From: Candidatus Saccharimonadota bacterium
GTDB taxonomy: Bacteria > Patescibacteriota > Saccharimonadia > Saccharimonadales > Saccharimonadaceae
NCBI GenBank assembly: GCA_017433245.1
Contig: JAFRHO010000009.1
Coordinates: forward strand, 1-64,000
Direction of reading: 5' to 3'
DNA length: 64,000 nucleotides
A model generated the notes under the pieces. The model did not search any database. It was not told the origin of the DNA and saw only the letters and a list, made by a program, of their open reading frames with translations. Positions 3,269-46,554 of the stretch are shown piece by piece (within the stretch, counting starts at the first letter, position 1; every line of letters starts with the position of its first letter). Position numbers and translations under genes: made by a program.

Positions 3269-3548
3269 TTAGAATAGGTCGCTATGGCTTCCGGTTCTTG
3301 CCAAGAATAAAGTTAGCACATCATTATCTACACGATATACTAGTAACCAATCGGGTTCTATATGGCACTCACGTAATCCTTTGTAATATTTGGAAGTAGT
3401 TAGAGCATGGTCGCGATACTTAAATGGTAGTTTTTGTTCTTCTGCAAGCATTAGTACTACTTTGTCTAGTTTGCTCATCTTAAGCCCACGTTTTTTTAGC
3501 CTTCTCGAGATCCTCACGAAATTGACGGCTGAAGCGGACTTTAAGCAT
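3269..3548 (-). pseudogene. YafQ-family mRNA-interferase toxin, frameshifted at an A7 run
   Basis: The natural start ATG (3546-3548) overlaps the antitoxin stop by eight bases. From it the frame reads MLKVRFSRQFREDLEKAKK and then stops soon after a run of seven A residues (T7 on the plus strand near 3491-3497). Removing one A restores a 92-residue YafQ-type toxin, the usual length of the family. In that reading His47, His62, Asp66 and His88 fall at positions matching the catalytic residues of E. coli YafQ. YafQ toxins cleave mRNA on the ribosome. The conserved remainder suggests recent inactivation, a sequencing error in the homopolymer, or expression through transcriptional slippage. Confidence 0.75.
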
Positions 3549-3813
3549 GCAGTGCCTCCAAGATCTCTTCCTTGGTGTTGTATGGTCCTTCGGTCAGTTC
3601 GGGATGATGATAGATTTCATCAATCGCTGCCATGGTTTCTTTGTTGGGCTGTTCGTTTAATGAGACATCAAAAGGGATGCTTTTTGTGCGAGCCGCTTTA
3701 ATCAAAAAAATGTTTAGCGCTGTGCTAAGGTCGATACCTAAATCGGCAAAGACTTTCTTGGCGGTGGCTTTAGTTTTACTATTGGTTCTAAATGTAATTG
3801 CTGTATCGTACAT
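3541..3813 (-). CDS. RelB/DinJ-family antitoxin
   Basis: 90 residues. The N-terminal segment (about 5-45: ITFRTNSKTKATAKKVFADL, then GIDLSTALNIFLI) is the ribbon-helix-helix DNA-binding domain of RelB/DinJ antitoxins. The acidic C-terminus (HHPELTEGPYNTKEEILEALHA) would bind and block the partner toxin encoded immediately downstream. The start is supported by AAGGAG a few bases before ATG. Family members repress their own operon by binding operators at the promoter. The intact antitoxin beside a broken toxin is a common stage of decay, or the toxin may still be made by slippage. Confidence 0.85.
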   Translation of the reverse strand: MYDTAITFRTNSKTKATAKKVFADLGIDLSTALNIFLIKAARTKSIPFDVSLNEQPNKETMAAIDEIYHHPELTEGPYNTKEEILEALHA

Positions 3814-3987: not shown

Positions 3988-5634
3988 ATGAGTAGGATGA
4001 GATTATACACAACAAGTTTGATATTAACTTTAACTTTATTGAGTAGTGGGATACTAGCATCTAGTATGGCATCTGCGGATGATGACACTAATGTGGTGGA
4101 CCAGATTAATATTACGGTACCGGTGGCATGTACACTATCTGGGACTGGGATGAGTTCGCATAATGCTACCATTAATAATGGTCAGTATAACTCTGCTATC
4201 GGTGAGACTGCACTTAAAGCCTTCTGCAATGACAATAATGGCTTTGCTATCTATGCAATTGGCTATACTGATGATACGGATGGGAAAAATGTACTTACTA
4301 ATTCCACGCTTGGTTCTACTTATGACATCGTCACTGGCACTGCAACAAGTGGTAATACTAGTAATTGGGCGATGAAGTTGAGCGTAGTTACAAGTCCTAC
4401 TCCAACGTATCCAATCATTATAGCAGGTAGTACTGACGATACCGAGAAGGAACAAGGTGACCCTGACTTCACTACCTTCCAGGAAGTGCCAGACGATTAT
4501 GAGAAAGTGGCATACAGAACTGCTGGAACTGACATTGGTACAGGTGCAGAAGGAACTACACTGAAGACTACCTATCAAGCCTACATCAACACTACTCAAC
4601 CGGCTGGGACATATACGGGACAAGTCAAATACACACTAGTACATCCATACAGCGCAGCGGCTCCAGTGGCTTGTAAGCCCAATGGCACCACGATTTCTAC
4701 AATTGCTTGTATGCAGGACGTAACTTCATCTAATAAATCTACCATCCTCACTTCTATGACGGAAGATCAACAGTATACTCTGGTAGACAAGCGTGACGGT
4801 AAGACTTACACGGTATCAAAACTCAAAGACGGTAATATCTGGATGACGCAGAACTTAGACTTAGACTTAGATTCAAGTAAGACCTATACTAATGAAGACA
4901 CTGACCTAGGTTGGAACGGTACGAGTTATAGCACTGCTAGTTGGACGCCAGAAAGAAGTACTTATACTACCGGGACTACGACTTGGGGATTATATAATTC
5001 CACGACAGGCAATCATGATGGACAAACCCACCCAGAGTCGTATGACCCGGGAGACTTGTACTGGAATGGTACGCTAAGTGATTATAGTGATTGGAATGCC
5101 TATTTTGGCAGTTGTACCTATAATAGTACAACTTGGCTATATGAAAACTGTGACGAATCATTGAACCCAATTGGCACATATACTACAGTATCTGGTACTC
5201 CAACCCCACAATACCACCTAGGTAACTTCTACAACTGGACTGCAGCGGTGGCATTAAATGATAGTAGCACTTATACTACTCAGTACCAAGACCTGAATCA
5301 ATCAATCTGTCCGGTAGGCTGGACTCTACCTAAGAGTGGTAACAATACAAGTTCTGGTTCCTTCCAATATATGTTTGAACAATATGGTTGGGATAGTAAT
5401 TCTTATGAGTTAGGTGGTGGTTATACTGCTTACCAAACCCCGATGTATCTTAGTCTTGGTGGCTGCTGGTACGGTTCGCTGACCGGCGTGGGCTACGACG
5501 GCGACTTCTGGTCGCCGGTGGTCGGCAATGCTAACGGCGCGTACGGCGCCTACGACTACTCAGACGGCGGCGTCGGCCCAGACGGCGGCGGCGATCGCTA
5601 CGGCGGTATAGCGGTGCGTTGTATAGCGCGGTAG
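3988..5634 (+). CDS. DGR1 target: secreted FISUMP-domain protein with C-terminal variable repeat
   Basis: 548 residues. Residues 1-31 form a Sec signal peptide (hydrophobic TSLILTLTLLSSGILA). Residues about 35-225 form a domain shared with the proteins at 22750 and 42682 (ending KYTLVHP). Residues about 235-548 form a FISUMP (Fibrobacter succinogenes major paralogous) domain, a C-type-lectin-like fold, with hallmarks DGNIWMTQNL, GNFYNWTAAV and ICPVGWTLPKSG. The last 59 residues (490-548) are encoded by the variable repeat and differ from the template at 19 codons, now mostly Gly, Tyr and Asp. The protein is expected to be secreted or surface-exposed, with a ligand-binding face that the retroelement rewrites. 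No C-terminal wall-sorting signal is present. The ligand is unknown. Confidence 0.9.
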   Translation: MSRMRLYTTSLILTLTLLSSGILASSMASADDDTNVVDQINITVPVACTLSGTGMSSHNATINNGQYNSAIGETALKAFCNDNNGFAIYAIGYTDDTDGKNVLTNSTLGSTYDIVTGTATSGNTSNWAMKLSVVTSPTPTYPIIIAGSTDDTEKEQGDPDFTTFQEVPDDYEKVAYRTAGTDIGTGAEGTTLKTTYQAYINTTQPAGTYTGQVKYTLVHPYSAAAPVACKPNGTTISTIACMQDVTSSNKSTILTSMTEDQQYTLVDKRDGKTYTVSKLKDGNIWMTQNLDLDLDSSKTYTNEDTDLGWNGTSYSTASWTPERSTYTTGTTTWGLYNSTTGNHDGQTHPESYDPGDLYWNGTLSDYSDWNAYFGSCTYNSTTWLYENCDESLNPIGTYTTVSGTPTPQYHLGNFYNWTAAVALNDSSTYTTQYQDLNQSICPVGWTLPKSGNNTSSGSFQYMFEQYGWDSNSYELGGGYTAYQTPMYLSLGGCWYGSLTGVGYDGDFWSPVVGNANGAYGAYDYSDGGVGPDGGGDRYGGIAVRCIAR

Positions 5635-5669
5635 TAGGGCGTTTCGGTTTGCCTTGCTTCCCGCCTTTC
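5455..5669 (+). repeat. Variable repeat VR1 of DGR1
   Basis: 215 bases at the 3' end of the target gene and just beyond its stop codon, aligned without gaps to TR1 at a constant offset of 503. All 31 differences are at positions where TR1 has A; every T, G and C of TR1 is retained. Within the coding part, 18 of 20 AAY codons and one GAC codon are altered (29 substitutions: about 23 A-to-G, 5 A-to-T, 1 A-to-C). The block about 5605-5645 is identical to the template, including six A residues, and is the likely initiation-of-mutagenic-homing (IMH) segment. Confidence 0.93.
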
Positions 5670-5750
5670 CGAAATCCAAAGAAATGGGCTTGATAAGATC
5701 GAAACGTGATAATGTTTTGAAAAACATGATTGGTTGGTTGGGCTGGAAAT

Positions 5751-5758
5751 GTTATAAT
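5751..5758 (+). promoter_or_regulatory. Extended -10 promoter for the TR1 RNA
   Basis: TG-T-TATAAT, with the TG at 5750-5751 and TATAAT at 5753-5758. A weak TTGGTT lies about 17 bases upstream. It lies between VR1 and TR1 and would start a dedicated template RNA near 5765. Confidence 0.55.
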
Positions 5759-5764
5759 GAGATT

Positions 5765-6175
5765 GCGGTAGGCCGCGTAGATGAATGTTGGATCCGGAGT
5801 AAGGTCCATTCCGACATTGGTTCTATAAAATGGAAAGGCAAAGAACCCACCTGGTAGTTTCCGGGTATTGTACTGTGCTGCCTTATGCCCCAAGGGGCGT
5901 AATGGAGATTAAGTGGTTCTTCAAATATACTGTCTTTGTGATTTCTCGAGATTGTATCTTGGTGGCAACTGGTACGGTTCGCTGAACAACGTGGGCAACA
6001 ACGGCAACTTCTGGTCGCCGGTGGTCAACAATGCTAACAACGCGTACAACGCCAACGACAACTCAGACGGCAACGTCAACCCAGACAACAACGACAATCG
6101 CAACAACGGTATAGCGGTGCGTTGTATAGCGCGGTAGTAGGGCGTTTCAGTTTGCCTTGCTTCCCGACTTTCTAA
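5765..6175 (+). ncRNA. Predicted DGR1 template RNA
   Basis: Non-coding segment from the extended -10 promoter through TR1. About 190 bases precede TR1 and contain foldable stems: GCGG/CCGC near 5765-5776, AATGTTGG pairing with CCGACATT near 5784-5819, and a GC-rich hairpin around 5883-5902. In studied DGRs the RNA containing TR plus flanking structured sequence is the substrate and primer source for the reverse transcriptase. The 3' end is not defined; no clear plus-strand terminator was seen. Apart from TR1, the 5670-6202 interval holds no gene. Confidence 0.6.
5958..6172 (+). repeat. Template repeat TR1 of DGR1
   Basis: 215 bases matching VR1. It is packed with 20 AAC/AAT codons in the target's frame, which gives an Asn-rich virtual translation. 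A residues at the first two codon positions are the mutable sites; the third base C or T is held, so stop codons cannot arise from AAY. The copy extends past the target's stop codon. TR1 and VR1 differ at two further A positions beyond the stop (6149 and 6167). Confidence 0.93.
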
Positions 6176-12150: not shown

Positions 12151-15100
12151 ATGTTAAAGCTAAAAGAAAATAGGGGGATAAAGAATTATTTAGGTCGAAC
12201 TCGGATTCTAATGGTTGCGATGATGGCGATTATGGCAGCTGTGGCTAGTTTATGGGGGCTGAAGAAAGCGGGGGCGTTTGAGGGGGATTACTGGACGACA
12301 GAATATGATGGGCTTAGCATAACTGTAGTATCGGTAGAGCAGAATGGTGTGAGCTTGGCGCCGCAAGATGATGGCGAAGGTGGATACTATTTTGACGTTG
12401 CAAACAATACGGACGCTGTGAGAGTTGGTGCCAGAGTGGAAGGAATGGTACAAGATGAAACGTATTATTACTATCCAACAAGCCAGTGGTGGATGGACAG
12501 CAGAATAGATTTAACCTATGAGGACAATGGTATAGTAATATATGAAGAGCTTAAGCCGGAAATTAGTTTTGACGATGGTGGTTATTATTTGTCAGGTATT
12601 TATCATGTAGGTGCAAGTGTTAGTAGAGAACATGGTTCTGGTGTTCAGAAGAATATTGTAGTTCGCCCAACTAGCATCGGAAGCCATAGTATCGATATTG
12701 TTTCGGTGAAACAAGGAGGAACGAATTTAGCACTTATAGATAATGAATATCAAATAACTGATTATACTACTCCAGTTACTTTAACCTATAAATTCAAAAA
12801 CCTTGAAGTTGGTAAGAATTATTCAGCTGGGCTAGGTTATAATGACTGGTACCAGTTTAAAGCCGAAAACACCCAGACAGCAGAAACTACTCGCGAACTC
12901 ACTCTAAATCTTACCGATAGTCATATTGAGACAAATGTTTATTTGCAAGGCTCTGATATTGATGAGAGAGTAGAGTTGTACTTTGCAGTGGCGGACGGTG
13001 ACTTTCATCAACTCGGCGATATTATTATAGATGAGATAGAACAGGGTGGTGTGGCGTTAGTGCCTGAGTCGAATACATCGGGTTGGCAACGACAATATAC
13101 TTTTACGGCAAACGATGCGCAGGGTTTGACTGTGAGAATGCACACGACTTTAGCGACTGCTGATATAAATTATTATGTATTATTTAATATATACGGTTCT
13201 GGCTATGGTGCAGGATACTCGTCTGAGGTGCCGCTAATGGTCACTGGTGAAGAATTAGAGCGAGCAGGCGTAGTCTTGACGATTCCAGCGCCATATGGAT
13301 TGAGCGACAACTCGCCACTAACATTATCGTTTACCGTTAATACTACCGGTATGGATACATACGGTTATAACAATTCGCGAAAAGTTGTCTATAAGCAATA
13401 TGCAAACCCTCAAAATACTGATGATGCTTTCAAATTCAATGTTGAAGTAAACGAAGATGTTCCACGCTTTGAGGCAGGAATGTTCTACTCGGACGGCACA
13501 AGGATTGATGGTGACAGGATTAGTCCGGCCCTTCACGATGATGAACATCCACTACTTCTAGAAGTTAATGGTGAACGCTATAATGATGCAACTACATATA
13601 ATGTAGAAGCAAAGGTGAGGATTAGTGGTGAATCGGAAGCGTATTATACTCATACTTTCGTTTTAACCGGTGCAGAATTGAATGAGGGAACTGTTATCCC
13701 ACTAGATGGATTAGCGTTGGAACTACCCGAGTTCGACCCAAGTGGCGCAACTTCTGGGTATGAGCTGTATTACATTTTTTCGTTAAGCATTGATGGGCTC
13801 GCGCAAAGTGGCGAAATGCTTTATGTATATGAAGGTTGGATTAATCCGTCTATAACTTTCAATAATGGTGAGGTCATTGCTATGGGTTCTGGTGGTGGTA
13901 TCGGTGGTGACTACTATACTACAATGAACGGTGCGACAGTAAGGAAATCGTCGCTCAGTGGAAGTAGAGGTGCGAAGATTAACTACTTTGCAGGTGATTT
14001 TGATGATACCTTAAGTTATGATTATACAATTTATTATAATGGTAATGTTGGGGAAGATTGGTGGTCTGAGCCAGCTGGAACAGTATTAACTAGCGGTACT
14101 GTGACTGGAGAGGAGCTGAATAATAATGGTCTTGCTGTAAATATGGCTACGCCAAGTAACGAATCGGAAGGTGCTATGTATACTTTAGTAATTACTCGCG
14201 GTGGTAAAATAGTGAGAATTGCGCGTGATTACTTAGCATTTACTGATGAACCAAAGATTGAGTCCTTTAAGTTTACCGCTGATAGCGATTCGTTTATGCA
14301 AACAGACAGGACTGCATATCGGGTAGCAAAAGGTACTGATGTTGTGGCAACTCTAACTGGCGATGGATTTACAAACGATGCAGAGTATAAGATATGGGTG
14401 AGTTATGAAGGGTATCGTAATAGCGAAGAACAAGATGAATGGGGTTATAGTCGTCCTGAAGATGTAGATTTATCGGATTTGAATGAGTCAATAGTAGTGA
14501 CTGGCGCACAATTAAACGCTGGATATACATATACTTTAGAATATGTTGAGGCGCTTGAAGAAGTAAACTTTATAGAAGTAGGATTTGCTGTATCGGATGT
14601 GGATGCTGATGAGCCAAATTGGTATGGTGAGACTGGCAACGGCCATTATTCTGGGCATGGTATTCATATTGATTATGTGAATGACGATGAGGTGTTCCGT
14701 GATAATGGTTATCAAGTTAATGAAGATGGGACGATTACGGATGTATCGCAACCAGATGAGCCACATGGGCCAGATGAGCCGGAAGAAGTACCGGTAGACA
14801 TTAAGACACCTAGCGAAGTTGATGTAATTGTGGATGGTACTGGGCTCACTATAGTATCGAGGAAACCAACTTTGGTAATTGGGCTAAAGGATGGTCATTA
14901 TAGTCTTGTTGCAGCGACACAAAGCATTGATAATGATAGTGAGAGAACGAATTCATATGATATGAGCGGTTATGAGGAAATAAAGGTGGTATTGAAGGGC
15001 GATGGTGATATGAATGGATCGGTGGATCCGGCGGATTTGAACCTTTTGAATAGATCGTTGATTAGCCCAACCTTAGGGAGAAGATATCGGGCTTTGACAG

Positions 15101-15225
15101 ATTTGGAAAGTGTCATCTTTGATTTCGATGGGAACGGAGATGTGACGCCGGCAGATTTGAATACACTTAATCGAGCATTGATTAGTCCAACTCTTGCGCC
15201 TAGATATCGAGAGATACAGTGGTAG
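12151..15225 (+). CDS. Large secreted protein with C-terminal dockerin
   Basis: 1024 residues; the ATG eight bases after AAGGAG is chosen over an upstream GTG. The N-terminus has a membrane or signal segment (ILMVAMMAIMAAVASLWGL). The bulk (about 45-900) is beta-rich, Tyr- and Asp-rich, with recurring phrases such as VTGEELNNNG and VTGAQLNAG that suggest four or more tandem Ig-like modules of unknown function. Residues about 946-1024 form a type I dockerin: two EF-hand-like loops (GDGDMNGSVDPADLNLLNRS and FDGNGDVTPADLNTLNRA) flanking a linker. Dockerins dock onto cohesins, and a cohesin-like domain is encoded two genes downstream. A nearly identical dockerin ends the next protein. Confidence 0.85.
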   Translation: MLKLKENRGIKNYLGRTRILMVAMMAIMAAVASLWGLKKAGAFEGDYWTTEYDGLSITVVSVEQNGVSLAPQDDGEGGYYFDVANNTDAVRVGARVEGMVQDETYYYYPTSQWWMDSRIDLTYEDNGIVIYEELKPEISFDDGGYYLSGIYHVGASVSREHGSGVQKNIVVRPTSIGSHSIDIVSVKQGGTNLALIDNEYQITDYTTPVTLTYKFKNLEVGKNYSAGLGYNDWYQFKAENTQTAETTRELTLNLTDSHIETNVYLQGSDIDERVELYFAVADGDFHQLGDIIIDEIEQGGVALVPESNTSGWQRQYTFTANDAQGLTVRMHTTLATADINYYVLFNIYGSGYGAGYSSEVPLMVTGEELERAGVVLTIPAPYGLSDNSPLTLSFTVNTTGMDTYGYNNSRKVVYKQYANPQNTDDAFKFNVEVNEDVPRFEAGMFYSDGTRIDGDRISPALHDDEHPLLLEVNGERYNDATTYNVEAKVRISGESEAYYTHTFVLTGAELNEGTVIPLDGLALELPEFDPSGATSGYELYYIFSLSIDGLAQSGEMLYVYEGWINPSITFNNGEVIAMGSGGGIGGDYYTTMNGATVRKSSLSGSRGAKINYFAGDFDDTLSYDYTIYYNGNVGEDWWSEPAGTVLTSGTVTGEELNNNGLAVNMATPSNESEGAMYTLVITRGGKIVRIARDYLAFTDEPKIESFKFTADSDSFMQTDRTAYRVAKGTDVVATLTGDGFTNDAEYKIWVSYEGYRNSEEQDEWGYSRPEDVDLSDLNESIVVTGAQLNAGYTYTLEYVEALEEVNFIEVGFAVSDVDADEPNWYGETGNGHYSGHGIHIDYVNDDEVFRDNGYQVNEDGTITDVSQPDEPHGPDEPEEVPVDIKTPSEVDVIVDGTGLTIVSRKPTLVIGLKDGHYSLVAATQSIDNDSERTNSYDMSGYEEIKVVLKGDGDMNGSVDPADLNLLNRSLISPTLGRRYRALTDLESVIFDFDGNGDVTPADLNTLNRALISPTLAPRYREIQW

Positions 15226-15295: not shown

Positions 15296-16987
15296 ATGAG
15301 TAAGTTCTTAAGCAGTACGAAGGGTCGTTTAATACTTTTTGGCGTGCTAACGATGTGTTTGTTGTGTGGTTTGTGGTTTTTTAATAATGAGAAGAAGATA
15401 GATAACGATGATTTGGATGGTGTGACGGGGTATTCTGATGAATTTATGGAGGAATATTTTGATTCTTATGCAGAGATGGCGGCTAGTGGTGAGCAAGAAA
15501 ACATATTAATAGTAATTAGTGCTAGTCGTCCAAATTATTATGGAGCAAGCAAAGTGGTAGAGGGGCCGAATCATGCTTATTATTTGATGTATGATGGTGC
15601 GGAGGAAAGAGATGATGCTTACGAACGATTCGTGGAGGATGATACCGTGAGTGTTGAAAAGAATACAAAGATGGAGTTATTAAACTACATGTCTTGGGGT
15701 ATAGAGAGGATGGGTATAGATGATGGTATTGTTGCGAGGGGGAATGGCGGTGAAAACGTAAAGGTCGCCATAATAGATACAGGATTAGATGTGGATTTGT
15801 TTCAACAATATTATCCATCAAGAGAGCTTAGTGTTTATAATGTAGATGCTGATTCGGATGAATTAACAGAAATGGAGGATACGGTTGGACATGGTACACA
15901 TATTGCTGGCACGATTGCGGAAGGGACGACGGAGCAGACGAGCATAATAGCTATTAAAGCAGATAAAGGAAAGGAACTATTTGTGGCCAGCGTAAATGCG
16001 GCAATCTATAAAGCGATCGAGATGGATGCTGATGTAATTAATATGAGTTTTGGTGGTAGTGGATATTCAACGAGTTTGAAATTGGCGCTTGATGCAGCGA
16101 ATGAAGCTGGTATTGTAACGGTAGCCGCAGCTGGAAATGATAATAGCACGGAAATTTTTTATCCGGCAGGTTATGATAATACGATATCGGTGGCAGCGTT
16201 AGATACGGATTTGGAAAGAGCAGTATGGAATGAGGAAGAGGGTTCTGGGTCAAACCATAATGAGATGGTAGATTATGCGGCACCTGGAACGTTGATTAGG
16301 AGTATTAATGGTGTTGCAAGTGGTACATCAGTAGCGGCTCCGCATGTGTCGGCTGTGGTGGCATTGCTTAAAAGTTATAATAAGGATTTGGACTTAAATG
16401 AAATGAATACATTGCTTAGGAAACATGTGGTGGATTTGGGCGAAGAGGGCAGGGATGATTATTATGGTTATGGGATGATTGATTTGAATGATGCAGAGTT
16501 TTGCGGAAATGCTTATTGTGATGAATATGGTGTGTTTGCGGTGGATGTGTCGATAGAGGATTTGACAGGAGGAGTGGCTGGAATTGCGGTACTGGATGAC
16601 GGGATTATGATAACGGCTGATAAAGCGTGTATGGTGATAATAAGTGATGATGGTGGAGAAACATATACTGCAGTGCCGGCTATGGCGGTTGTTGGTGAGG
16701 AGAACAAGTATAAATTTGAGTTTGAGGCGGTTGAAGAGGCTGAAGTAATGGTAGTATTAAAGGGTGATGGCGATTTGGATGGTGCGATAACGCCTGTAGA
16801 TTTGAATCGCTTGAATAGATCGCTAATTAGTCCGACTTTGGGAGTTAGATATAGAGCTTTAACTGATTTGGAAAGGGTGATTTTTGATTTTGATATGGAT
16901 GAGATTGTGACTCCGGCAGATTTGAATATACTCAATAGGGCGTTGATTAGTCCGACATCTAGACTTTATAAAGAGATAATGTGGTGA
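15296..16987 (+). CDS. Subtilisin-like serine protease (S8) with C-terminal dockerin
   Basis: 563 residues. An N-terminal hydrophobic anchor or signal (LILFGVLTMCLLCGLWFF) is followed by a propeptide-like region (about 50-135) and an S8 catalytic domain with Asp in AIIDTGLD, His in GHGTHIAG and Ser in SGTSVAAPHVS, all intact. After a beta domain, residues about 484-563 form a type I dockerin (KGDGDLDGAITPVDLNRLNR; FDMDEIVTPADLNILNRA). The protein is presumed exported and docked onto a cell-wall cohesin. An extended -10 (TGT-TAAAAT, 15281-15289) lies six bases before the ATG, so the transcript should be leaderless. It could mature surface proteins or attack host proteins (inference). Confidence 0.92.
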   Translation: MSKFLSSTKGRLILFGVLTMCLLCGLWFFNNEKKIDNDDLDGVTGYSDEFMEEYFDSYAEMAASGEQENILIVISASRPNYYGASKVVEGPNHAYYLMYDGAEERDDAYERFVEDDTVSVEKNTKMELLNYMSWGIERMGIDDGIVARGNGGENVKVAIIDTGLDVDLFQQYYPSRELSVYNVDADSDELTEMEDTVGHGTHIAGTIAEGTTEQTSIIAIKADKGKELFVASVNAAIYKAIEMDADVINMSFGGSGYSTSLKLALDAANEAGIVTVAAAGNDNSTEIFYPAGYDNTISVAALDTDLERAVWNEEEGSGSNHNEMVDYAAPGTLIRSINGVASGTSVAAPHVSAVVALLKSYNKDLDLNEMNTLLRKHVVDLGEEGRDDYYGYGMIDLNDAEFCGNAYCDEYGVFAVDVSIEDLTGGVAGIAVLDDGIMITADKACMVIISDDGGETYTAVPAMAVVGEENKYKFEFEAVEEAEVMVVLKGDGDLDGAITPVDLNRLNRSLISPTLGVRYRALTDLERVIFDFDMDEIVTPADLNILNRALISPTSRLYKEIMW

Positions 16988-22749: not shown

Positions 22750-25700
22750 ATGACGAGACGTGTGTTTTCAAGGTTATGTTTGGTCGCGATGATGTTTTTG
22801 ACATTGTTTATGTCTCATTGTTTAACGAATGGTCATGCTGTTGCGGTTGGTAATAGGAACAGTGAAGAAGTGTCTTGTACGCTTTCTTATAGCTCCATGG
22901 ATAATCATAGTGTAACTGTTATGAATGGCAATTATGTATCAGATATCGGTACGACTGATTTTGGTGCAACTTGTAGTGATGAAGCTGGGTTTGTGATATA
23001 TACGGCAGGTTTTTCAAAAAATTTGTTTGGCAACAATAAGTTGGTGGGATATTTTGAAGATGGCTATGATGCTGAATTCGATATTGAAAGTGGCACGGCG
23101 GTTAGCGGCGATACATCTAATTGGGCAATGAAGGTAGGGACGCTTCCGGGTGACTATACTCCGACTATCGAGAATGGTTTTGGCTCTTATAGGGCAATAC
23201 CAACTGATTATACTAGAATGGTTTCATTTAATGGCAGCACTAATGAATCTCCATCTATGGTTAGGATTAATTATGCGGTTTATGTTTCTAAAACCCAACG
23301 GATTGGAACATATGCTGGCAAAGTAAGATATACCTTAGTCCACCCACAAAATGCAGAAGCACCGCTCCACCCAGAAGTCTGTCCAGGCGAAGGTGACATT
23401 TGTTACATACCAAATGCCAAAAACGTAGTTGGCAAAATAGCTCCACAAGGTGCATCTATTGGCGAAAATACACTACGCACTAGCAACTTCAAAAGAGCGG
23501 GCTACGGATTTGCGGGCTGGAATACCGAGTATGACTATTCCGGCACAACTTATGGCCCAAACGAAACCATTACTATTTCTGACTATTTGGATGAAGGTGG
23601 GCTTCCGCTATACGCCGTATGGGTCAAATCTAGCGGTAGCCTCCAGAGCTGGAACGGTTGCTACGAATTATCGGTAGGCGACGTAATCGCACTAACCGAC
23701 CAACGCGACAACCAGACTTATGCAATTTCAAAACTCGCAGATGGCAAGTGCTGGATGATTGAAAACCTAAGACTTAGCGACGATGCCAATAATGAAGCGA
23801 TGTCGCAGGACTACGGTGGGAAATTTGTTGGTCTACCAGAATCGCAGTATAGTGAAGAATTCCGAGATGACGTGACTCCGTATAATAGTTTATACTATTA
23901 CGACATCGATGAGCCAGATGACTATCATGGTGAGGCTACGATTAACATCGGGTCGGATGATTATCCGAGTACTAGGCTTCCGCGTTACAATAATAATAAT
24001 ACTACTTGGCAAGCAGATGTCGCCGAAGAACCAACCAACTTTTATTTTGGCTACGGTCATTATTACAACTGGCCAGCTGCGATAGCTAACACTAGCTTTT
24101 TCAAAAACAATAATACTCACACTACTACATCAATTTGTCCAATCGGTTGGAGGTTGCCAATGGGTGGTGACAAAGGAACCGAAGAAACTAACGAATACTG
24201 GGAGTTAATAGTAAAAGGTCTAAACAACAATGTGTCACCCCTAAATTATGAAACTCAAGACAACCCTCACTATTCCGGTAGTGCAGAAGCAAAGGCAGTA
24301 AGCAATCTAATAAGAGCTTACCCTAATAACTTTATAAACTCTGGCAAGTTTGAAGACGCTGATTATGTCGATCCTGGTGATGGCGGAATGTATTGGTCAT
24401 CAACATCCGGGCCAACTGAAGTGGCTTATGGATTATCTTTTAATGAGATGTCAGTCTATCCTGGTACAAAAACAGAACTGAAGTATAACGGTGGTACAAT
24501 TCGTTGCATCACAACACCAGAAGAATATCATGACGTAACAGTACATTTTGATAGCGGCGTTAGCAGTATTGTTTTCCATAGCGATATATTTGGCGAACAA
24601 GAAGCGGCAAATGGAGCGACCGTAAGCCTTGCTAAAAACGCACAGTATACAATTTGGGCGACATATAGTGCCGATAATCGTGGTGCAAATACCTGGACAA
24701 CTACATCAAGCGGCGTTCTAGGCTCTACGACGAGCGCCGTCACTACTTATACGATTAGCGGTGATGCGGAGTTGTCACTAACCAGTAAAGAAGTTTGCCC
24801 GGCAGATAAAATTTGTTACCAGCGCAACGATACAGCTACTGGTACACTTAATGGTGTAATGGGGCAACAAAGTATCGGCGGCACAGAAGCAGTTTTGCTG
24901 GCCTCAAATTATAGCAATACTGAGTATGGTTTTGCTGGCTGGAATACAGCGCTAGACGGTAGTGGTATCTATTATGGGCCAAACGAGACTATCCATTATG
25001 AAAGCGGTGCTTATAGCCGTCCATACAATGGCTTAACTCTTTATGCTATGTGGGTGCCATCGGTTGGTTATTTGCAAAACTGGTATTGCCCAAGTGAAGA
25101 TAAAATGCCGATTGGCACAGTAACTGCATTAACTGATTATCGCGATAATCAGGTTTACGCTGTAGCAAAATTGGCTGATGGTAAATGCTGGATGATTGAG
25201 AATATGCGATTAGAGAGCGAAAACACTGTGGGTAACAGTATCAATAATTCGAACATAACAAATCAGAGTTTGGCCCAGGGTTATGCTTCTTCTTCAGAAT
25301 ATGGCAACTTTATTGGCCTTGCAGACGCAGAGCAATCTAATTTTAATACTAATGGCAATTCAAATAGCATATATGGTACCGATATTGGCAGCATAATTGA
25401 TATTGGGCATATTGACGCCAGTGCATATCGTGTGCCGCGCTACAACAATACAAATACTCTAGCGCGCGCTTCGGAACCAACAGACAATACAGAAAACATT
25501 TATTCGTATGGGAATTATTACACATGGCATGCTGCTATTGCGGATACTGCGTACTATGGTGTTGATAACAAGAATTTAGATGAAACATCTATTTGTCCGG
25601 CTGGTTGGGAATTGCCAACTGGTGGTTCGGCTTATGTTGCCGGTAGCACGAATGGGGTCAATGTGACCGGAGACGAATCTACTTACCGCGATTATTATAA

Positions 25701-27732
25701 TTTAGGCTATCACCTAATAGGTGCCACTGCCTATGAAAACAATTCTAACAATGGTCACTCATATTATTCCGCTAGTACTGGTGAAATATTCCGCAAATAT
25801 CCAAATAATTTCTTGTATTCTGGTGTTTATTATGATTCATCTGCACAGGATAGAGGAACATCGGCATATTATTGGACTGCTACATCTAGCGGAAATGACG
25901 TCGACGCTTATCAGTTATCTATTGGCCAAGATGTTAGGCCGGGCACCGATAATGTCGTGACGTATAAAGGCGCTGCGATTAGATGTATAAATGATAATAC
26001 ACCAAAAAGCATAAGTGGTTTGGAATATATGCAAGACTTTGCAAATCTTTCAGCGCAGGAGCTGGAAGTAGTTAAAAGCAACATGATAGAGGATGAACAA
26101 TATTTAATCAAAGACAGTCGTGACAATAAAGAGTATTTTATTTCGAAATTAGCGGACGGGAATATTTGGATGACGCAAGATTTGGATCATGATATTGTAA
26201 CAATTCCTAATTACTACACTTATTACAACACCGATATTGGACATGGCGTAGTAAAAAACACAGACGCAACCTGGACGGCTTCGACTGCAACTTATGAAAC
26301 TGGCGACACAACTTGGATAAATGGCGGTAATGGTAGGAATATTCCTCAATCTTATGACCCTGGCGATATAGTTTGGGATGGTGTACCCGATACTTATTGG
26401 TATACTACCTTGGATAATATGGTGCAAGGCTTCGAGTCGCACTATCGTATTGGTAATTATTATGATTTTACAGCGGCCGTTGCAATGAATGATAGCAGTA
26501 GCTATACGAGCGGTGAAATTGATCAATCGATTTGCCCAGCTGGTTGGACTTTACCGAAATCAGGAAACGACAACGTAGAACCAGGAACGTTTAGCTATTT
26601 GATAAAGCAATATGGGCATGACTCTAGTACACTCCATATGGACGACCCACATCCGTGGGAAGCCCCGCTTTATTATGCGTATGGAGGATACTGGAAGGGT
26701 TTTTCGGATGTGGTGGCTTCATTTGCGTACTACTGGTCATCTTCTGTTGATGGAGAAAGTTCGGCATATAATATGTCGGCAGATCCTGATGCTACAGCTA
26801 TAGCACCGAATGCTGCATACAGTCGTTCCGATGGACTTAATGTACGTTGTATTACAAGAAGCCCAAAATGGAGTATTAATGACTTAGAACATATGCAGGA
26901 TTTTGCAAAACTTAACTTTGATGATAAGGTGGATGTATTTGCTTCAATGACGGAAGGTGAACAATATCAATTGACGGATTCGCGTGATAACAAAGTTTAT
27001 TATATTTCTAAATTAGCAGATGGGAATGTATGGATGACACAGAACTTGGACTTTGACATTGTAAATGGTGGGGCGGCCATTAATAGCACTAATACTGATG
27101 TGCCGGCCAATTGGACGGGCGCAGGTCATCTGAATGATACTTATGCCCCGGAGTACGATTCTTGGTACCATTTGGGCCGTTATTCGGAATCGTATGACGT
27201 TGGTGATTGGTGTTGGGATGGCAGTATAGAATTCAATGATGATGCCGAATGGTATAAATATAGTATTCCGTGTACAGATAGACATTATCATGTGGGCAAT
27301 TATTATAACTGGACCGCTGCGGTAGCATTAGAGGATTCTAGTATGTATTATGCTCCAGAAGAGTCAACTGGATATGATAACGTTGATGTCGATCAGTCAA
27401 TTTGTCCAGCTGGTTGGATGTTACCTAAGGACGGAATATCTAGCGGTTCGGGTACATATGAATACCTAGTTAATCAGCAGCATTTGGCAGGTGGCGTTTC
27501 TGGCAATATTCATCAGGCGCCAGCTTACTTTGTATATGGTGGATGGTACTATGGTGGCATTCCAGATTACTTTGGTGGCGAAGGTTTTTATTTGTCATCC
27601 GTGTTTTTGCCCGATCAATATAACACTATGGGTTATATGTCATTTGATGAATATGATGAAGATCAAATAGTCTACAATGGAGGACGTAGCAACGATGATG
27701 GGTATTCACTTCGTTGTCTGGTGCGGAGATAG
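22750..27732 (+). CDS. Giant secreted protein with four FISUMP domains
   Basis: 1660 residues. A signal peptide (about 1-30) is followed by the same N-terminal domain as the DGR targets (ending KVRYTLVHP, about 200). Two InlB-like modules (GYGFAGWNTEYDYSGTTYGP near 250 and YGFAGWNTALDGSGIYYGP near 720) end in the phrases LYAVWV and LYAMWV. FISUMP domains occur at about 300-590, 777-1082, 1090-1370 and 1373-1660, each with the DGKCWMIEN or DGN-WMTQ motif, the ICP-GW-LP motif and the RC terminal motif. No template-like A-rich repeat matches any of its domain ends, so it is not a visible DGR target, although it is the same family. No wall-sorting signal was seen. Probably an adhesin. Confidence 0.85.
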   Translation: MTRRVFSRLCLVAMMFLTLFMSHCLTNGHAVAVGNRNSEEVSCTLSYSSMDNHSVTVMNGNYVSDIGTTDFGATCSDEAGFVIYTAGFSKNLFGNNKLVGYFEDGYDAEFDIESGTAVSGDTSNWAMKVGTLPGDYTPTIENGFGSYRAIPTDYTRMVSFNGSTNESPSMVRINYAVYVSKTQRIGTYAGKVRYTLVHPQNAEAPLHPEVCPGEGDICYIPNAKNVVGKIAPQGASIGENTLRTSNFKRAGYGFAGWNTEYDYSGTTYGPNETITISDYLDEGGLPLYAVWVKSSGSLQSWNGCYELSVGDVIALTDQRDNQTYAISKLADGKCWMIENLRLSDDANNEAMSQDYGGKFVGLPESQYSEEFRDDVTPYNSLYYYDIDEPDDYHGEATINIGSDDYPSTRLPRYNNNNTTWQADVAEEPTNFYFGYGHYYNWPAAIANTSFFKNNNTHTTTSICPIGWRLPMGGDKGTEETNEYWELIVKGLNNNVSPLNYETQDNPHYSGSAEAKAVSNLIRAYPNNFINSGKFEDADYVDPGDGGMYWSSTSGPTEVAYGLSFNEMSVYPGTKTELKYNGGTIRCITTPEEYHDVTVHFDSGVSSIVFHSDIFGEQEAANGATVSLAKNAQYTIWATYSADNRGANTWTTTSSGVLGSTTSAVTTYTISGDAELSLTSKEVCPADKICYQRNDTATGTLNGVMGQQSIGGTEAVLLASNYSNTEYGFAGWNTALDGSGIYYGPNETIHYESGAYSRPYNGLTLYAMWVPSVGYLQNWYCPSEDKMPIGTVTALTDYRDNQVYAVAKLADGKCWMIENMRLESENTVGNSINNSNITNQSLAQGYASSSEYGNFIGLADAEQSNFNTNGNSNSIYGTDIGSIIDIGHIDASAYRVPRYNNTNTLARASEPTDNTENIYSYGNYYTWHAAIADTAYYGVDNKNLDETSICPAGWELPTGGSAYVAGSTNGVNVTGDESTYRDYYNLGYHLIGATAYENNSNNGHSYYSASTGEIFRKYPNNFLYSGVYYDSSAQDRGTSAYYWTATSSGNDVDAYQLSIGQDVRPGTDNVVTYKGAAIRCINDNTPKSISGLEYMQDFANLSAQELEVVKSNMIEDEQYLIKDSRDNKEYFISKLADGNIWMTQDLDHDIVTIPNYYTYYNTDIGHGVVKNTDATWTASTATYETGDTTWINGGNGRNIPQSYDPGDIVWDGVPDTYWYTTLDNMVQGFESHYRIGNYYDFTAAVAMNDSSSYTSGEIDQSICPAGWTLPKSGNDNVEPGTFSYLIKQYGHDSSTLHMDDPHPWEAPLYYAYGGYWKGFSDVVASFAYYWSSSVDGESSAYNMSADPDATAIAPNAAYSRSDGLNVRCITRSPKWSINDLEHMQDFAKLNFDDKVDVFASMTEGEQYQLTDSRDNKVYYISKLADGNVWMTQNLDFDIVNGGAAINSTNTDVPANWTGAGHLNDTYAPEYDSWYHLGRYSESYDVGDWCWDGSIEFNDDAEWYKYSIPCTDRHYHVGNYYNWTAAVALEDSSMYYAPEESTGYDNVDVDQSICPAGWMLPKDGISSGSGTYEYLVNQQHLAGGVSGNIHQAPAYFVYGGWYYGGIPDYFGGEGFYLSSVFLPDQYNTMGYMSFDEYDEDQIVYNGGRSNDDGYSLRCLVRR

Positions 27733-42646: not shown

Positions 42647-42674
42647 TTGACTATGCCTTGAAATGCTGTATAAT
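42647..42674 (+). promoter_or_regulatory. Promoter of the DGR2 target gene (leaderless)
   Basis: -35 TTGACT (42647-42652), 16-base spacer, -10 TATAAT (42669-42674), ATG at 42682. Box spacing and distance to ATG are identical to the DGR1 target promoter, and both start with TAAGCATGAG-like sequence. Confidence 0.75.
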
Positions 42675-42681
42675 TATAAGC

Positions 42682-44574
42682 ATGAGAAAGATGTCTTTTT
42701 ATATAGGATTATTAAGTTTGAATTTAATTAGTGGTGTGGTACTGGCTTCTAGTTTTGTCTCGGCAACAGACGATGAAGTAGTAGATTCGGTCCAACTCAC
42801 GGTACCGATTGCTTGTACAATGACCGGTACTGGTACTACGCATACGGCTATATTAAATCCCGGTACTTATTCGGGTGAGTCTGGTTCAGAATACGAAAAT
42901 GGCATTGGCAAAACTACACTTACTGCTATATGTAATGATGATAATGGCTTCTCCATCTATGCTATAGGATATACTGGTAATCAATATGAAGGGGAAAATC
43001 ACACTAAACTCATCGGACAATCTACAAGTAGTACTATAGCTACTAAAGCCTATACATCGGGAGATACTACCTCTAATTGGTCCATGAAACTAACTAAAGT
43101 CACTGATACAACGGAATCCTATAACCCACAGAACTTAACTATCCAAAGTGATACGGAAGGCACCTTTTCTTCATGGCATAGTGTGCCAGCTTCATATACT
43201 AAAGTAGCAGAATACCATGCCAATACTGGTTCATCTACTACCGATACTACACTAGGAGTAAAACTAGAAACTACCTATGCAGCATACATAGCATCCAATC
43301 AATCTGCTGATACTTACGAGGGACAAGTGAAATACACTATGGTACATCCATATACAGAAGAACCACTTCAGCCACAATCCTCAGCATCAGGTAAAATCTG
43401 TTACTATGCCAATGCTTCAGATGCAGAAGGCACAATGGGTTGCCAGGATGTAGCAAACTCTGTTACATTACTTGCCTCCAACTTCAGTCGTACTAGCTAT
43501 GGTTTCGCTGGCTGGTCCGATAAGTTTGACTATGCCACTAACCCAGAGGCTAAGTTCTATGGCCCACAAGAAACCATGGCTATTCCAGATACTTCCATCT
43601 ACACTGGCGATGGTAAAGGCTTATCGCTCTATGCAGTCTGGGTAAAGAGTGCAGGTAACCTCCAAGATACTACTAAAGTTGCTACACTTTGTGGAACGGG
43701 AACGGGTAGTTTAATCAAGGCTAATGAGGCTACAAATATCCTAAGCCAAAGTATCACTGCTCTTTCTGATGCTCGCGACAATAATACCTACGCCATCGCT
43801 AAACTCGCCGATGGTAAATGCTGGATGATAGAGAACCTCCGCCTAGACAACTCTGTCTCACTCACTCTCGTAAATACTAATAATCCGCTAAACGATGGCA
43901 CTAATGTCACCATCAAACATAGTTATTCAGATACCGAAACACATAACACCCTTTCTGCTTCGCAAGATCCTACTACAACTGCATGGTGCCAATCCAATAG
44001 TGCTTCTTGTGATGACCAATCTATGTTATTTACTGGTAATACTACTAACCGTGCTTCCTATGAAACTGGAGCTACCATGACAAATAGTGCCAATATCTAT
44101 TCCTATGGTAACTACTACAACTGGTACTCTGCTACAGCGGGTAGAGGCACATATGGCTTTAGTACTAACAATAATAGTGTAGCAGGCGACTTATGCCCCG
44201 CTGGATGGCATCTACCAATAGGTGGCAGAAAAGCCAATGTGGATGTAAGTGACTTCTGGAAACTATCGCGTGCTACTATAGGAGCAGATCCAGCAAACTT
44301 TGCTAATGATTACTTCTATTACACGGGTACTCCAGAAGGTACGGATGCTTCTAATAAAATGAGAGCTTATCCTAACAATTTTGTCTATTCCGGCAACGTC
44401 AACGGCGGTTCGGTAGGCTATCGTGGCTCGAGCGGCTCCTTCTGGTCGTCTACGGCGCGCTCGTCCCTCTACGCCTACTACCTGTACTTGCTCTCGTCCT
44501 ACGTCTACCCAGGCACGTACTACAACTACAAGTACTACGGGAGGACAGTGCGTTGCGTCGCCCCCGGCGTTTAG
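42682..44574 (+). CDS. DGR2 target: secreted FISUMP-domain protein with C-terminal variable repeat
   Basis: 630 residues from MRKMSFYIGLL; a TTG further upstream lies inside the promoter and is rejected. A signal peptide (about 1-28) precedes the N-terminal domain shared with the 3988 and 22750 proteins (ending KYTMVHP). An InlB-like module (YGFAGWSDKF...LYAVWVKSAG, about 270-325) and a FISUMP domain (about 330-630: DGKCWMIENL, GNYYNWYSAT, LCPAGWHLPIGG) follow. The last 64 residues or so lie in the variable repeat; 16 codons differ from the template, mostly to Tyr with some Leu, Ser, Gly and Arg. It is expected to be secreted, with an aromatic-rich binding face. It differs from target 1 by having the InlB-like module. 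Confidence 0.9.
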   Translation: MRKMSFYIGLLSLNLISGVVLASSFVSATDDEVVDSVQLTVPIACTMTGTGTTHTAILNPGTYSGESGSEYENGIGKTTLTAICNDDNGFSIYAIGYTGNQYEGENHTKLIGQSTSSTIATKAYTSGDTTSNWSMKLTKVTDTTESYNPQNLTIQSDTEGTFSSWHSVPASYTKVAEYHANTGSSTTDTTLGVKLETTYAAYIASNQSADTYEGQVKYTMVHPYTEEPLQPQSSASGKICYYANASDAEGTMGCQDVANSVTLLASNFSRTSYGFAGWSDKFDYATNPEAKFYGPQETMAIPDTSIYTGDGKGLSLYAVWVKSAGNLQDTTKVATLCGTGTGSLIKANEATNILSQSITALSDARDNNTYAIAKLADGKCWMIENLRLDNSVSLTLVNTNNPLNDGTNVTIKHSYSDTETHNTLSASQDPTTTAWCQSNSASCDDQSMLFTGNTTNRASYETGATMTNSANIYSYGNYYNWYSATAGRGTYGFSTNNNSVAGDLCPAGWHLPIGGRKANVDVSDFWKLSRATIGADPANFANDYFYYTGTPEGTDASNKMRAYPNNFVYSGNVNGGSVGYRGSSGSFWSSTARSSLYAYYLYLLSSYVYPGTYYNYKYYGRTVRCVAPGV

Positions 44575-44599
44575 CGTTTCTCTGTTCGTGCCGTTCCAG
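44379..44599 (+). repeat. Variable repeat VR2 of DGR2
   Basis: 221 bases aligned gap-free to TR2 at offset 694. All 21 differences fall on template A (about 13 A-to-T, 4 A-to-G, 4 A-to-C), changing 16 of 17 AAY codons downstream of the invariant NVN segment. The last 75 bases or so, from GGGAGGACAGTGCG through the stop codon to 44599, are identical to the template and contain the likely IMH. Confidence 0.94.
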
Positions 44600-44610
44600 A
44601 GCCCTAGGAA

Positions 44611-44648
44611 TGTTCAAAGGTTTGTCGTAAGACAAACACTTTGAACAG
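44611..44648 (+). repeat. Inverted repeat with GTAA loop just downstream of VR2
   Basis: TGTTCAAAG-G-TTTGTC-GTAA-GACAAA-CA-CTTTGAACA forms a long near-perfect hairpin starting 12 bases beyond VR2. In the Bordetella phage DGR a hairpin or cruciform just after the VR is needed for efficient homing; this element is in the right place for the same role. Confidence 0.6.
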
Positions 44649-44649
44649 G

Positions 44650-44727
44650 GCCACTGCCCTGCGGTGGCCCCACCTTTGTTCACTTCTAGCGAACAAGGGA
44701 AATAGATTTGCCGGCCCTGCCGGCAAG
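44650..44727 (+). repeat. Cluster of three further hairpins between VR2 and the TR2 promoter
   Basis: GGGCCAC/GTGGCCC (about 44650-44671), CCTTTGTTC/GAACAAGGG (about 44673-44700, one wobble) and TTGCCGGC/GCCGGCAA (about 44709-44727). None has a proper T run. They may be target-site structure, or insulate the target mRNA from the template RNA; no gene is present here. Confidence 0.5.
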
Positions 44728-44764
44728 TCCGGGGTTTTCACAGATGCCTCTTACAGCATATTTG

Positions 44765-44773
44765 TGGTATAAT
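44765..44773 (+). promoter_or_regulatory. Extended -10 promoter for the TR2 RNA
   Basis: TGG-TATAAT (TATAAT at 44768-44773) without a good -35 box, the same promoter type as before TR1. Confidence 0.6.
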
Positions 44774-45072
44774 GGTAATGGCTAATAAGTAGATTCGGAA
44801 AAGGAATGATAGATTAAGTTACTATCATCGTCCGAATTCGGAACTTTGCCGCATAGGGCTCAGAGTCGCACCTGGCGAGAGGCTAGGTCGGTGTTTCGGG
44901 GCGAGTTTTAATAAGCTCGGGAAGAAGCGATTTTTGTAGGCTACGGTCTACAACGATTGTAAGTTGACTCTTATCCTCTTGGTGTTTATTTTACGCCAGA
45001 CTAGCCCTCTGGTGGTTGATAGTACCTGGTTTCTATGGGTCTCTGATTGCTGGTTGTACTGTTTGGCTGGCG

Positions 45073-45293
45073 TTTTGTCTATTCCGGCAACGTCAACGGC
45101 GGTTCGGTAAACAATCGTGGCTCGAACGGCAACTTCTGGTCGTCTACGGCGAACTCGTCCAACAACGCCTACAACCTGAACTTGAACTCGTCCAACGTCA
45201 ACCCAGGCACGAACAACAACAACAAGTACAACGGGAGGACAGTGCGTTGCGTCGCCCCCGGCGTTTAGCGTTTCTCTGTTCGTGCCGTTCCAG
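45073..45293 (+). repeat. Template repeat TR2 of DGR2
   Basis: 221 bases matching VR2, carrying 17 mutable AAC/AAT codons downstream of a constant NVN-encoding start. The copy includes the target's stop codon and 25 bases beyond it. It shares no close nucleotide identity with TR1, although both encode the FWS...RC framework of the FISUMP C-terminus. Confidence 0.94.
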
Positions 45294-45315
45294 CTCCCTA
45301 AAGTGGTGAAGCCTC

Positions 45316-46545
45316 TTAATTAGAATAAGGGAATAGAAAATCGTCTGACTCAGGCGATTTTCTAGTTTTTTGGAAGTTGGTACGAAATAGGTCGTCTGGT
45401 ATATAATCCCAGCCAGTTTCGTCGAAGATTTCTTTTAGGATATTGTAGCTATTGAAGTATTTAAAATGCCCCATATAGGATGGAACACTATCTATTGTTC
45501 GCGTGCCAGAGACAACTTCCTTCATGGCACGTTTGGCATTCTTAATTAAACGACTGCCTGGCATAATATGGTTGTGATAGACGGTGGCGCCGAGAAAGGG
45601 AATGCCGTATTCGGATTCTTTGAGCATACGTTTCTTGGGATGAAGTGTAAGACCGATGAAACTGAGATAATCTTCTATAGCATGGATGTCCTTCTTTAAT
45701 TGCATTAGTTGGTCTTCTCTTACTACGATGAAGAAGTCATCGACGTAGCGACCATAATGTTTGTAGCCGAGGTCTAGGGTGATAAAATGGTCTAGTAAAT
45801 CTAGATAAATATTAGATAAGAGCTGCGACGTGAGATTTCCAATTACAATACCTTGTCCGGCTGGCTGGTTGAAGAGGCTTTTACTGGTTGGAAGGTAAGC
45901 CCAGGCGTCCAGATCACCCTTTTTCTTGGCGCCTTTGACTGGGTCATCCATGATGGTGCGTTGCCAGAGGAATTTCAGAATATCATACTCGCGTGTGCGT
46001 TCTCTTCCTTTGAACTGCTGGTTTAATCCCCAAATGGCACGGTCGTATAATTCCTTGCGAGGGAGCGACATGAAATAACCCTGGATGTCTAGTTTGCAGA
46101 CATAAACTTTATATTTGTAGTTTTCCGAGGCGGAGCGGATGTGATGGTCTAGGCGCTGAATGCCGAAGAGCACCCCTTTGTCTAGCCGACAAGAGTACGA
46201 ATCGTAAATGAAGTGATTGTCCCACCAATGATAAACGGAGCCGAATAATAGATGATGAACAATGCGGTCACGAAAAGGTGCAGCAAAGATTTCGCGGATA
46301 ACTGGTTTTGTGATAATGTGCGCCGTACTACGCAAAGGAATGTAGGTTTTGTTGATAATATCATTTGAGAGATATTGGAGGTTGGCGAAGAGCTTAATCT
46401 CGAAATCATGTTCGTCGTGAGTGCGACGCTTGCCACCCTTTCTGGCTTCTAAGTAAGATAGGTATAGCGCGAGATTTAGTTGGCTTTTGAAGGTGCGGCG
46501 TTCCGCGTGGTTGTAATCTGGGTAATTGGATAAAAATGTTTGCAT
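45316..46545 (-). CDS. DGR2 reverse transcriptase
   Basis: 409 residues. DGR-type reverse transcriptase with Asp153 (KLDIQGYF), IGNLTSQ (235-241) and catalytic YVDD (267-270). It copies TR2 RNA with A-directed errors into cDNA that replaces VR2. Around the active site it resembles the DGR1 enzyme (GIVIGNLTSQLLSNIYLD is shared), but the remainder has diverged strongly, so the two are not a recent duplication. It starts nine bases after the accessory gene, whose stop codon overlaps its ribosome binding site (TAAGGAGC). The last 20 codons lie over the TR2 RNA terminator. Confidence 0.95.
   Translation of the reverse strand: MQTFLSNYPDYNHAERRTFKSQLNLALYLSYLEARKGGKRRTHDEHDFEIKLFANLQYLSNDIINKTYIPLRSTAHIITKPVIREIFAAPFRDRIVHHLLFGSVYHWWDNHFIYDSYSCRLDKGVLFGIQRLDHHIRSASENYKYKVYVCKLDIQGYFMSLPRKELYDRAIWGLNQQFKGRERTREYDILKFLWQRTIMDDPVKGAKKKGDLDAWAYLPTSKSLFNQPAGQGIVIGNLTSQLLSNIYLDLLDHFITLDLGYKHYGRYVDDFFIVVREDQLMQLKKDIHAIEDYLSFIGLTLHPKKRMLKESEYGIPFLGATVYHNHIMPGSRLIKNAKRAMKEVVSGTRTIDSVPSYMGHFKYFNSYNILKEIFDETGWDYIPDDLFRTNFQKTRKSPESDDFLFPYSN
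45335..45371 (+). terminator. Terminator of the TR2 RNA, antisense to the RT 3' end
   Basis: A 15-base-pair stem (45335-45347 region with 45351-45363, three-base loop ACT, one GU pair) followed by AG and six T on the plus strand. It lies within the RT coding sequence on the other strand. Confidence 0.75.
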
Positions 46546-46554
46546 TTTTGCTCC

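Follow-up and report, generated by a model that had tools for sequence, protein, structure and literature searches.

A putative guide element in the template RNA leader of a diversity-generating retroelement from Saccharibacteria

The diversity-generating retroelement (DGR) of Bordetella phage BPP-1 (AY029185) combines A-specific transfer from a template repeat (TR) to a variable repeat (VR) with a reverse transcriptase (RT) and a protein of the Avd fold, and the 3′ end of its VR differs from that of its TR (IMH/IMH*). A structured spacer lies 3′ of the BPP-1 TR (PMC12875486). How the mutagenized cDNA of a DGR finds its target has been described as incompletely understood (PMC12875486); why the TR never gets overwritten is likewise incompletely understood. 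According to the accessible part of Roux et al. 2021 (PMC8144416), the DGRs of Patescibacteria/CPR (clade 2) are chromosomal and have a C-lectin-like target, and that part describes neither a guide element nor a TR leader for them. An inverted orientation of the RT relative to both TR and VR is also on record, as cassette pattern G5 (Yan et al. 2019, PMC6642488). Here we describe DGR1, a chromosomal DGR of a Candidatus Saccharimonadota bacterium, which shares with BPP-1 the A-specific transfer, the RT, the Avd fold and the distinct VR 3′ end, and with the Patescibacteria DGRs the chromosomal location and probably the type of target.

The window analysed is a stretch of 64,000 nucleotides (contig JAFRHO010000009.1, positions 1 to 64,000), and the features of its two DGRs are collected in Table 1. 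VR1 and TR1 align over 216 bp without gaps at an offset of 503. All 31 differences between them fall on a template A, although only 56 of the 216 nt of TR1 are A (hypergeometric P = 1.9e-22), and they comprise 24 A>G, 5 A>T and 2 A>C substitutions from TR1 to VR1. Within the 59 codons (5455–5631) that precede the stop codon at 5632 lie 29 of them, and the remaining two, at 5646 and 5664, are downstream of it. A preliminary description of this DNA had claimed that every difference is at a template A and that 29 are in the last 59 residues of the target, and both statements hold. The share of A>G in VR1 is unusually high (24/31, against 44% in relatives; P 1.7e-4) and yields many Asn to Gly codons.

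Table 1. Coordinates of the features of DGR1 and of the second DGR within the window
Feature	Position	Strand	Basis or remark
Target gene, secreted protein of 548 aa with FISUMP domain	3988..5634	+	ORF; TIGR02145 E=2.7e-11; variable region C-terminal
VR1, variable repeat	5454..5669	+	last 59 target codons and 3′ flank beyond stop
Guide-target site GCCTTTCC, IMH-like	5663..5670	+	VR1 3′ end; exact complement of leader guide
TATAAT, promoter-like −10 of TR RNA	5753..5758	+	by eye; place conserved in DGR1 clade
Structured 5′ leader of TR RNA	5759..5932	+	41-pair model; covariation in relatives
Guide element GGAAAGGC	5832..5839	+	unpaired in consensus; directly 5′ of helix P4
Helix P4, 5′ strand, AAGAACC	5841..5847	+	leader model
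Helix P4, 3′ strand, GGTTCTT	5915..5921	+	leader model
TR1, template repeat	5957..6172	+	strand opposite RT gene
TR counterpart of guide-target site, GACTTTCT	6166..6173	+	mismatched to guide
DGR reverse transcriptase, 372 aa	6203..7321	-	Pfam RVT_1 E=2e-11; PHROG 1423 E=8e-66; IGNLTSQ, YVDD
Accessory protein, 289 aa	7342..8211	-	N-terminal alpha/beta domain and Avd-like four-helix bundle (178–289)
VR2	44379..44606	+	guide-target site GAGCCCTA at 44599–44606
Guide element of DGR2, TAGGGCTC	44854..44861	+	
TR2	45073..45300	+	site counterpart GCTCCCTA (45293–45300), mismatched
RT of second DGR	45316..46545	-	

The proteins encoded at DGR1 are those of a DGR. Domain matches and motifs identify the RT as DGR-type, and most residues of the two motifs are invariant in an alignment of 21 sequences (A1). 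The accessory protein matches the NCBIfam Avd model only weakly in sequence (E=0.005), and is of the Avd type by its modelled fold: the AlphaFold (AF2) model has a pLDDT of 95.5, and Avd (4dwl) can be superposed on the last 112 residues with Z 14.5 and rmsd 1.7, the C-terminus likewise matching the BPP-1 DGR RNP (8ub7; Z 14.6). Its N-terminal alpha/beta domain is named by no Pfam model. The target domain has the FISUMP hit, and its AF2 model (pLDDT 75) gave no significant fold match in the PDB. Because the A-only footprint, the RT motifs, the Avd-fold protein and 23 related TR/VR pairs (see below) all agree, there is no reasonable doubt left that DGR1 is a genuine DGR that has worked in its lineage, as the preliminary description had read from the footprint alone. 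A YafQ/RelB-type toxin–antitoxin pair (3269–3813) adjoins the target gene. Relatives of the DGR1 RT occur in 85 of 147 members of the genus; named relatives of the bacterium are mostly of ruminant-gut origin, among them Candidatus Nanosyncoccus alces, and the host is a small epibiont-type bacterium.

It is on the + strand that the altered letters read A, so the template RNA is a + strand transcript and is therefore not part of the RT message. The RT gene is convergent with TR1, and the sequence suggests that TR1 has a promoter-like site of its own and is transcribed towards the RT, with a start at about 5760. The TATAAT element was seen directly upstream of this start; a sigma-70 consensus scan made no call at it. 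The 5′ leader of this RNA folds better than shuffled sequences (z=-2.6). In a set of eight close relatives and three weaker matches, whose alignment was fitted to the leader model and so favours structure, 32 of the 41 pairs are changed on both sides, and 91.4% of the cells are paired (72.4% when shuffled, a level of 91.4% being reached by none of 500 shuffles, and 34–47% when slid). With an unfitted alignment, RNAalifold gave 38 pairs, 21 of them with changes on both sides. The sequence 3′ of TR1, which overlaps the antisense of the RT end, does not fold better than shuffles (z=-0.09) and has no complementarity to the VR, which speaks against a BPP-1-like structured spacer at this place. A single covariance model for all leaders (R1) was abandoned, as it retrieves only the eight leaders of the DGR1 clade and three weak hits, which indicates that the leader sequence diverges fast and that only the layout, a guide followed by P4, is shared. 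Rfam scans at E up to 1 returned no family in the DGR1 region, group II included, none besides tRNA and rRNA for the window at gathering score, and none for nine phage DGR loci.

The leader carries an 8-nt element that is the exact complement of the VR1 3′ end. The VR site GCCTTTCC and its TR counterpart GACTTTCT differ, and the difference is fixed in the clade. It includes position 5664 (TR A at 6167, VR C), whose equivalent within the DGR1 clade (DGR1, L144, L145, two VRs of genome G115 and one of G090) is always C in clear VRs and always A in TRs. Because it lies inside the guide-target site and is fixed across these relatives, 5664 is probably a target/template discriminator and not a product of mutagenesis. 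Thus about 30 of the 31 differences that had been attributed to the retroelement are best read as mutagenesis, and the one at 5664 probably as a fixed recognition difference. Taken alone, the match at DGR1 is only mildly unlikely, as about 6% of mispaired loci reach 8 nt, and DGR1 has a second, overlapping and equally long match elsewhere, TTTGCCTT, that is common to the TR. The case for a guide therefore rests on the set of loci.

A second complete DGR (42658–47334) has the same convergent layout in the same window. Its TR and VR differ at 23 positions, 21 of them at A, and the two non-A differences (44600 and 44601) fall inside the guide-target site. The window also holds large multi-FISUMP surface proteins (22750–27732 and 36863–38965) that have no TR of their own and are possible former or remote DGR targets. 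Elsewhere in the window, a 215-bp direct repeat (14977–15191 and 16742–16956, ~75–77% identical) encodes a dockerin-like C-terminal module common to a 1026-aa surface protein and a subtilase.

We gathered 226 distinct RT loci and sought TR/VR pairs by self-comparison. The TR is antisense to the RT in 23 Saccharibacteria loci and not antisense in 6; L141, L223 and L354 show a third layout, in which the TR follows the RT on the same strand. In 23 Saccharibacteria TR/VR pairs together, 503 differences were counted, of which 475 (94%) are at A. Most of the non-A differences (20 of 28) fall within the last 14 nt of the repeat, and outside these 14 nt the share at A rises to 469/477 (98%). We then compared leader (−230 to −80) and VR end (−14 to +12) for exact complementarity. 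Cognate pairs match over 9.30 nt on average and mispaired ones over 5.75 (n=23, z=12), and at least 8 nt are matched in 16 of the 23 cognate loci against 5.9% of mispaired ones. The pairing sequences differ between loci while the same pairing scheme is retained, so that the differences compensate one another. These windows were fixed after the first hits, and the eight held-out loci outside the discovery set are therefore the cleaner test; they gave 12.4 versus 6.3 nt (z=6.3). Several of their matches are 13–15 nt long and extend beyond the repeat into the target-only flank, which the guide match reaches in L313, L317, L328, L335 and L341. In the 23-locus set, the direct strand, the VR at −60 and at +40, the TR 3′ side and the distal leader were all null as controls. 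No match of at least 8 nt is present in 7 of the 23 loci; a few loci with local VRs (L193, L221) have none at the expected place, perhaps through decay or relocation of the TR or the target.

The TR is mismatched at the guide-target site in 15 of 16 bacterial and in 30 of 30 viral loci. The mean energy of the guide duplex is −17.4 kcal/mol with the VR and −9.6 with the TR, a comparison that leans towards the VR because its best match was chosen; the fixed windows, in which leader and TR end show weak complementarity (z=3.5), give the unbiased one. This residual signal would be expected if the element paired only within the TR RNA, with the TR 3′ end, as the stem that primes cDNA, the VR match being a by-product of homology. 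Positions 48–56 of the BPP-1 spacer (Sp) can indeed pair with IMH* over 7 nt, and A56 of Sp is reportedly the base that primes cDNA, a point said to go back to Naorem et al. 2017. We nevertheless regard a pure primer stem as very unlikely, because the VR fits the guide better than the TR does in nearly all loci and because the guide passes the end of the repeat into sequence that only the target has, in the five loci named above. A simple primer stem built from the longest complementarity of leader and TR tail was also tried, and was inconsistent between loci.

Many loci lack a nearby VR, and the contigs of many relatives stop ~1–1.5 kb from the RT on the TR side, which would fit a VR that breaks assemblies. 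The guide is unchanged in those DGR1-clade genomes that lack a local VR. The guide allowed us to predict where remote VRs should end, and three such VRs were found afterwards in two genomes: two in G115 and one in G090, ending in GCCTTTCCG and GCCTTTCCT. These ends are nine-nt matches to their own leaders (CGGAAAGGC and AGGAAAGGC), with a ninth pair that covaries, and the TRs of both genomes carry GACTTTCC at the site. A poor remote VR candidate in G103 does not match the guide. In G115 one TR serves two remote VRs that have been rewritten differently, so homing has occurred repeatedly, which bears out the earlier claim of activity in this lineage. The element was spotted by eye in the first set and 8-mers are short, so that the complementarity might be thought a product of chance or of the many windows searched; given held-out loci stronger than the discovery set, null control windows and remote VR ends that were predicted, this explanation is already strongly disfavoured and, in our estimation, extremely unlikely.

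The complementarity holds equally for the sense DNA strand and for the target mRNA, between which the sequence does not discriminate. Complementarity to the one is complementarity to the other, and the site is untranslated, being 3′ of the stop codon, as it would be if the leader element were an antisense regulator that binds the target mRNA at its 3′ end to control stability, with no role in homing. Such a regulator would leave unexplained why the site sits exactly at the boundary of TR/VR homology, why the TR is mismatched at that very site, and why phage DGRs with other targets show a parallel. We therefore consider it unlikely. We think it quite likely, instead, that DGR1, in rewriting the C-terminal FISUMP (putatively C-lectin-like) part of its secreted target, uses the leader guide, which is mismatched to TR1, to pair with the VR1 3′ end.

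The phage parallel comes from viral DGR relatives, in which the cognate leader/VR signal is strong (z=14.9, n=68). Related viral contigs are not fully independent, and mispairing among relatives makes this test conservative; a weaker excess is also seen on the direct strand (z=3.4). A match of at least 8 nt is present in 30 of the 68 loci, with 24 distinct guides, and is missing from 38. The TR is on the RT strand in all 68, and here too the guide stands directly before a helix, the layout of guide and P4. In nine cultured phages the matches are short (5–8 nt). Among other Patescibacteria the guide signal is weak (z=2.9), and most TRs are on the RT strand in the families sampled. The BPP-1 clade has no complementarity signal in the 5′ leader; many of its members have the complement of the invariant IMH in the 3′ spacer, a parallel that is suggestive only, and the invariance of the IMH makes a covariation test impossible there. 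In Pseudomonas phage Cruim01, the record annotates an Rfam RT-15 RNA (L445, 4181–4373) that borders on the TR and lies shortly before the DGR RT, and the known RT-15 motif may thus belong to a DGR RNA. On balance we lean towards a general reading in which DGR template RNAs are guide RNAs, with a leader element that selects the target at the VR 3′ boundary and a mismatch that protects the template, in Saccharibacteria and a broad group of phages, and with the element permuted to the 3′ side of the TR in BPP-1.

Our best reading of these sequence patterns is that the TR RNA doubles as a guide RNA. A separate TR RNA would start at about 5760 and run towards the convergent RT operon, and its 5′ leader would fold so as to leave the 8-nt guide single-stranded just 5′ of helix P4. 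The RT, the accessory protein and the RNA would form one particle, in which the guide, by pairing at the VR 3′ end with the sense strand of the DNA, would choose the target and bring the adenine-mutagenized cDNA beside it. The mismatch between guide and TR would spare the template from rewriting. By comparison with BPP-1, cDNA priming may take place at the guide or beside it. Editing has been reported to prefer targets in which the strand complementary to the cDNA becomes single-stranded as the lagging strand is made (PMC12875486), and the proposed mechanism would fit this preference. Such a guide would be a sequence-level answer to how DGRs find their targets, would explain why IMH and IMH* differ, would make the RNA sufficient for predicting remote targets, and would turn DGRs into programmable diversification tools.

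We found no description of a DGR guide in the literature searched, whose coverage leaves out the BPP-1 structural papers and most preprints, and we therefore assert no priority. DGR1 departs from BPP-1 in several respects: the BPP-1 TR is on the RT strand, whereas TR1 is convergent with the RT; the structured RNA of DGR1 lies 5′ of the TR; and BPP-1 has a short separate Avd, whereas DGR1 combines its Avd domain with an N-terminal alpha/beta domain in one protein. The BPP-1 3′ spacer RNA contains AGGTGGTCA, the exact complement of the IMH TGACCACCT. Pattern G5 (PMC6642488) is a layout class only, whereas the inversion in DGR1 goes together with a TR RNA that is separate and has a leader of its own. 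We claim no membership of DGR1 among the group II introns, since no intron or ribozyme domains were seen in the Rfam scan of the region. The likeness is to their EBS–IBS pairing, in which a retroelement RNA base-pairs, beside the insertion point, with the sense strand of the target DNA, and the proposed DGR guide would work in a like manner.
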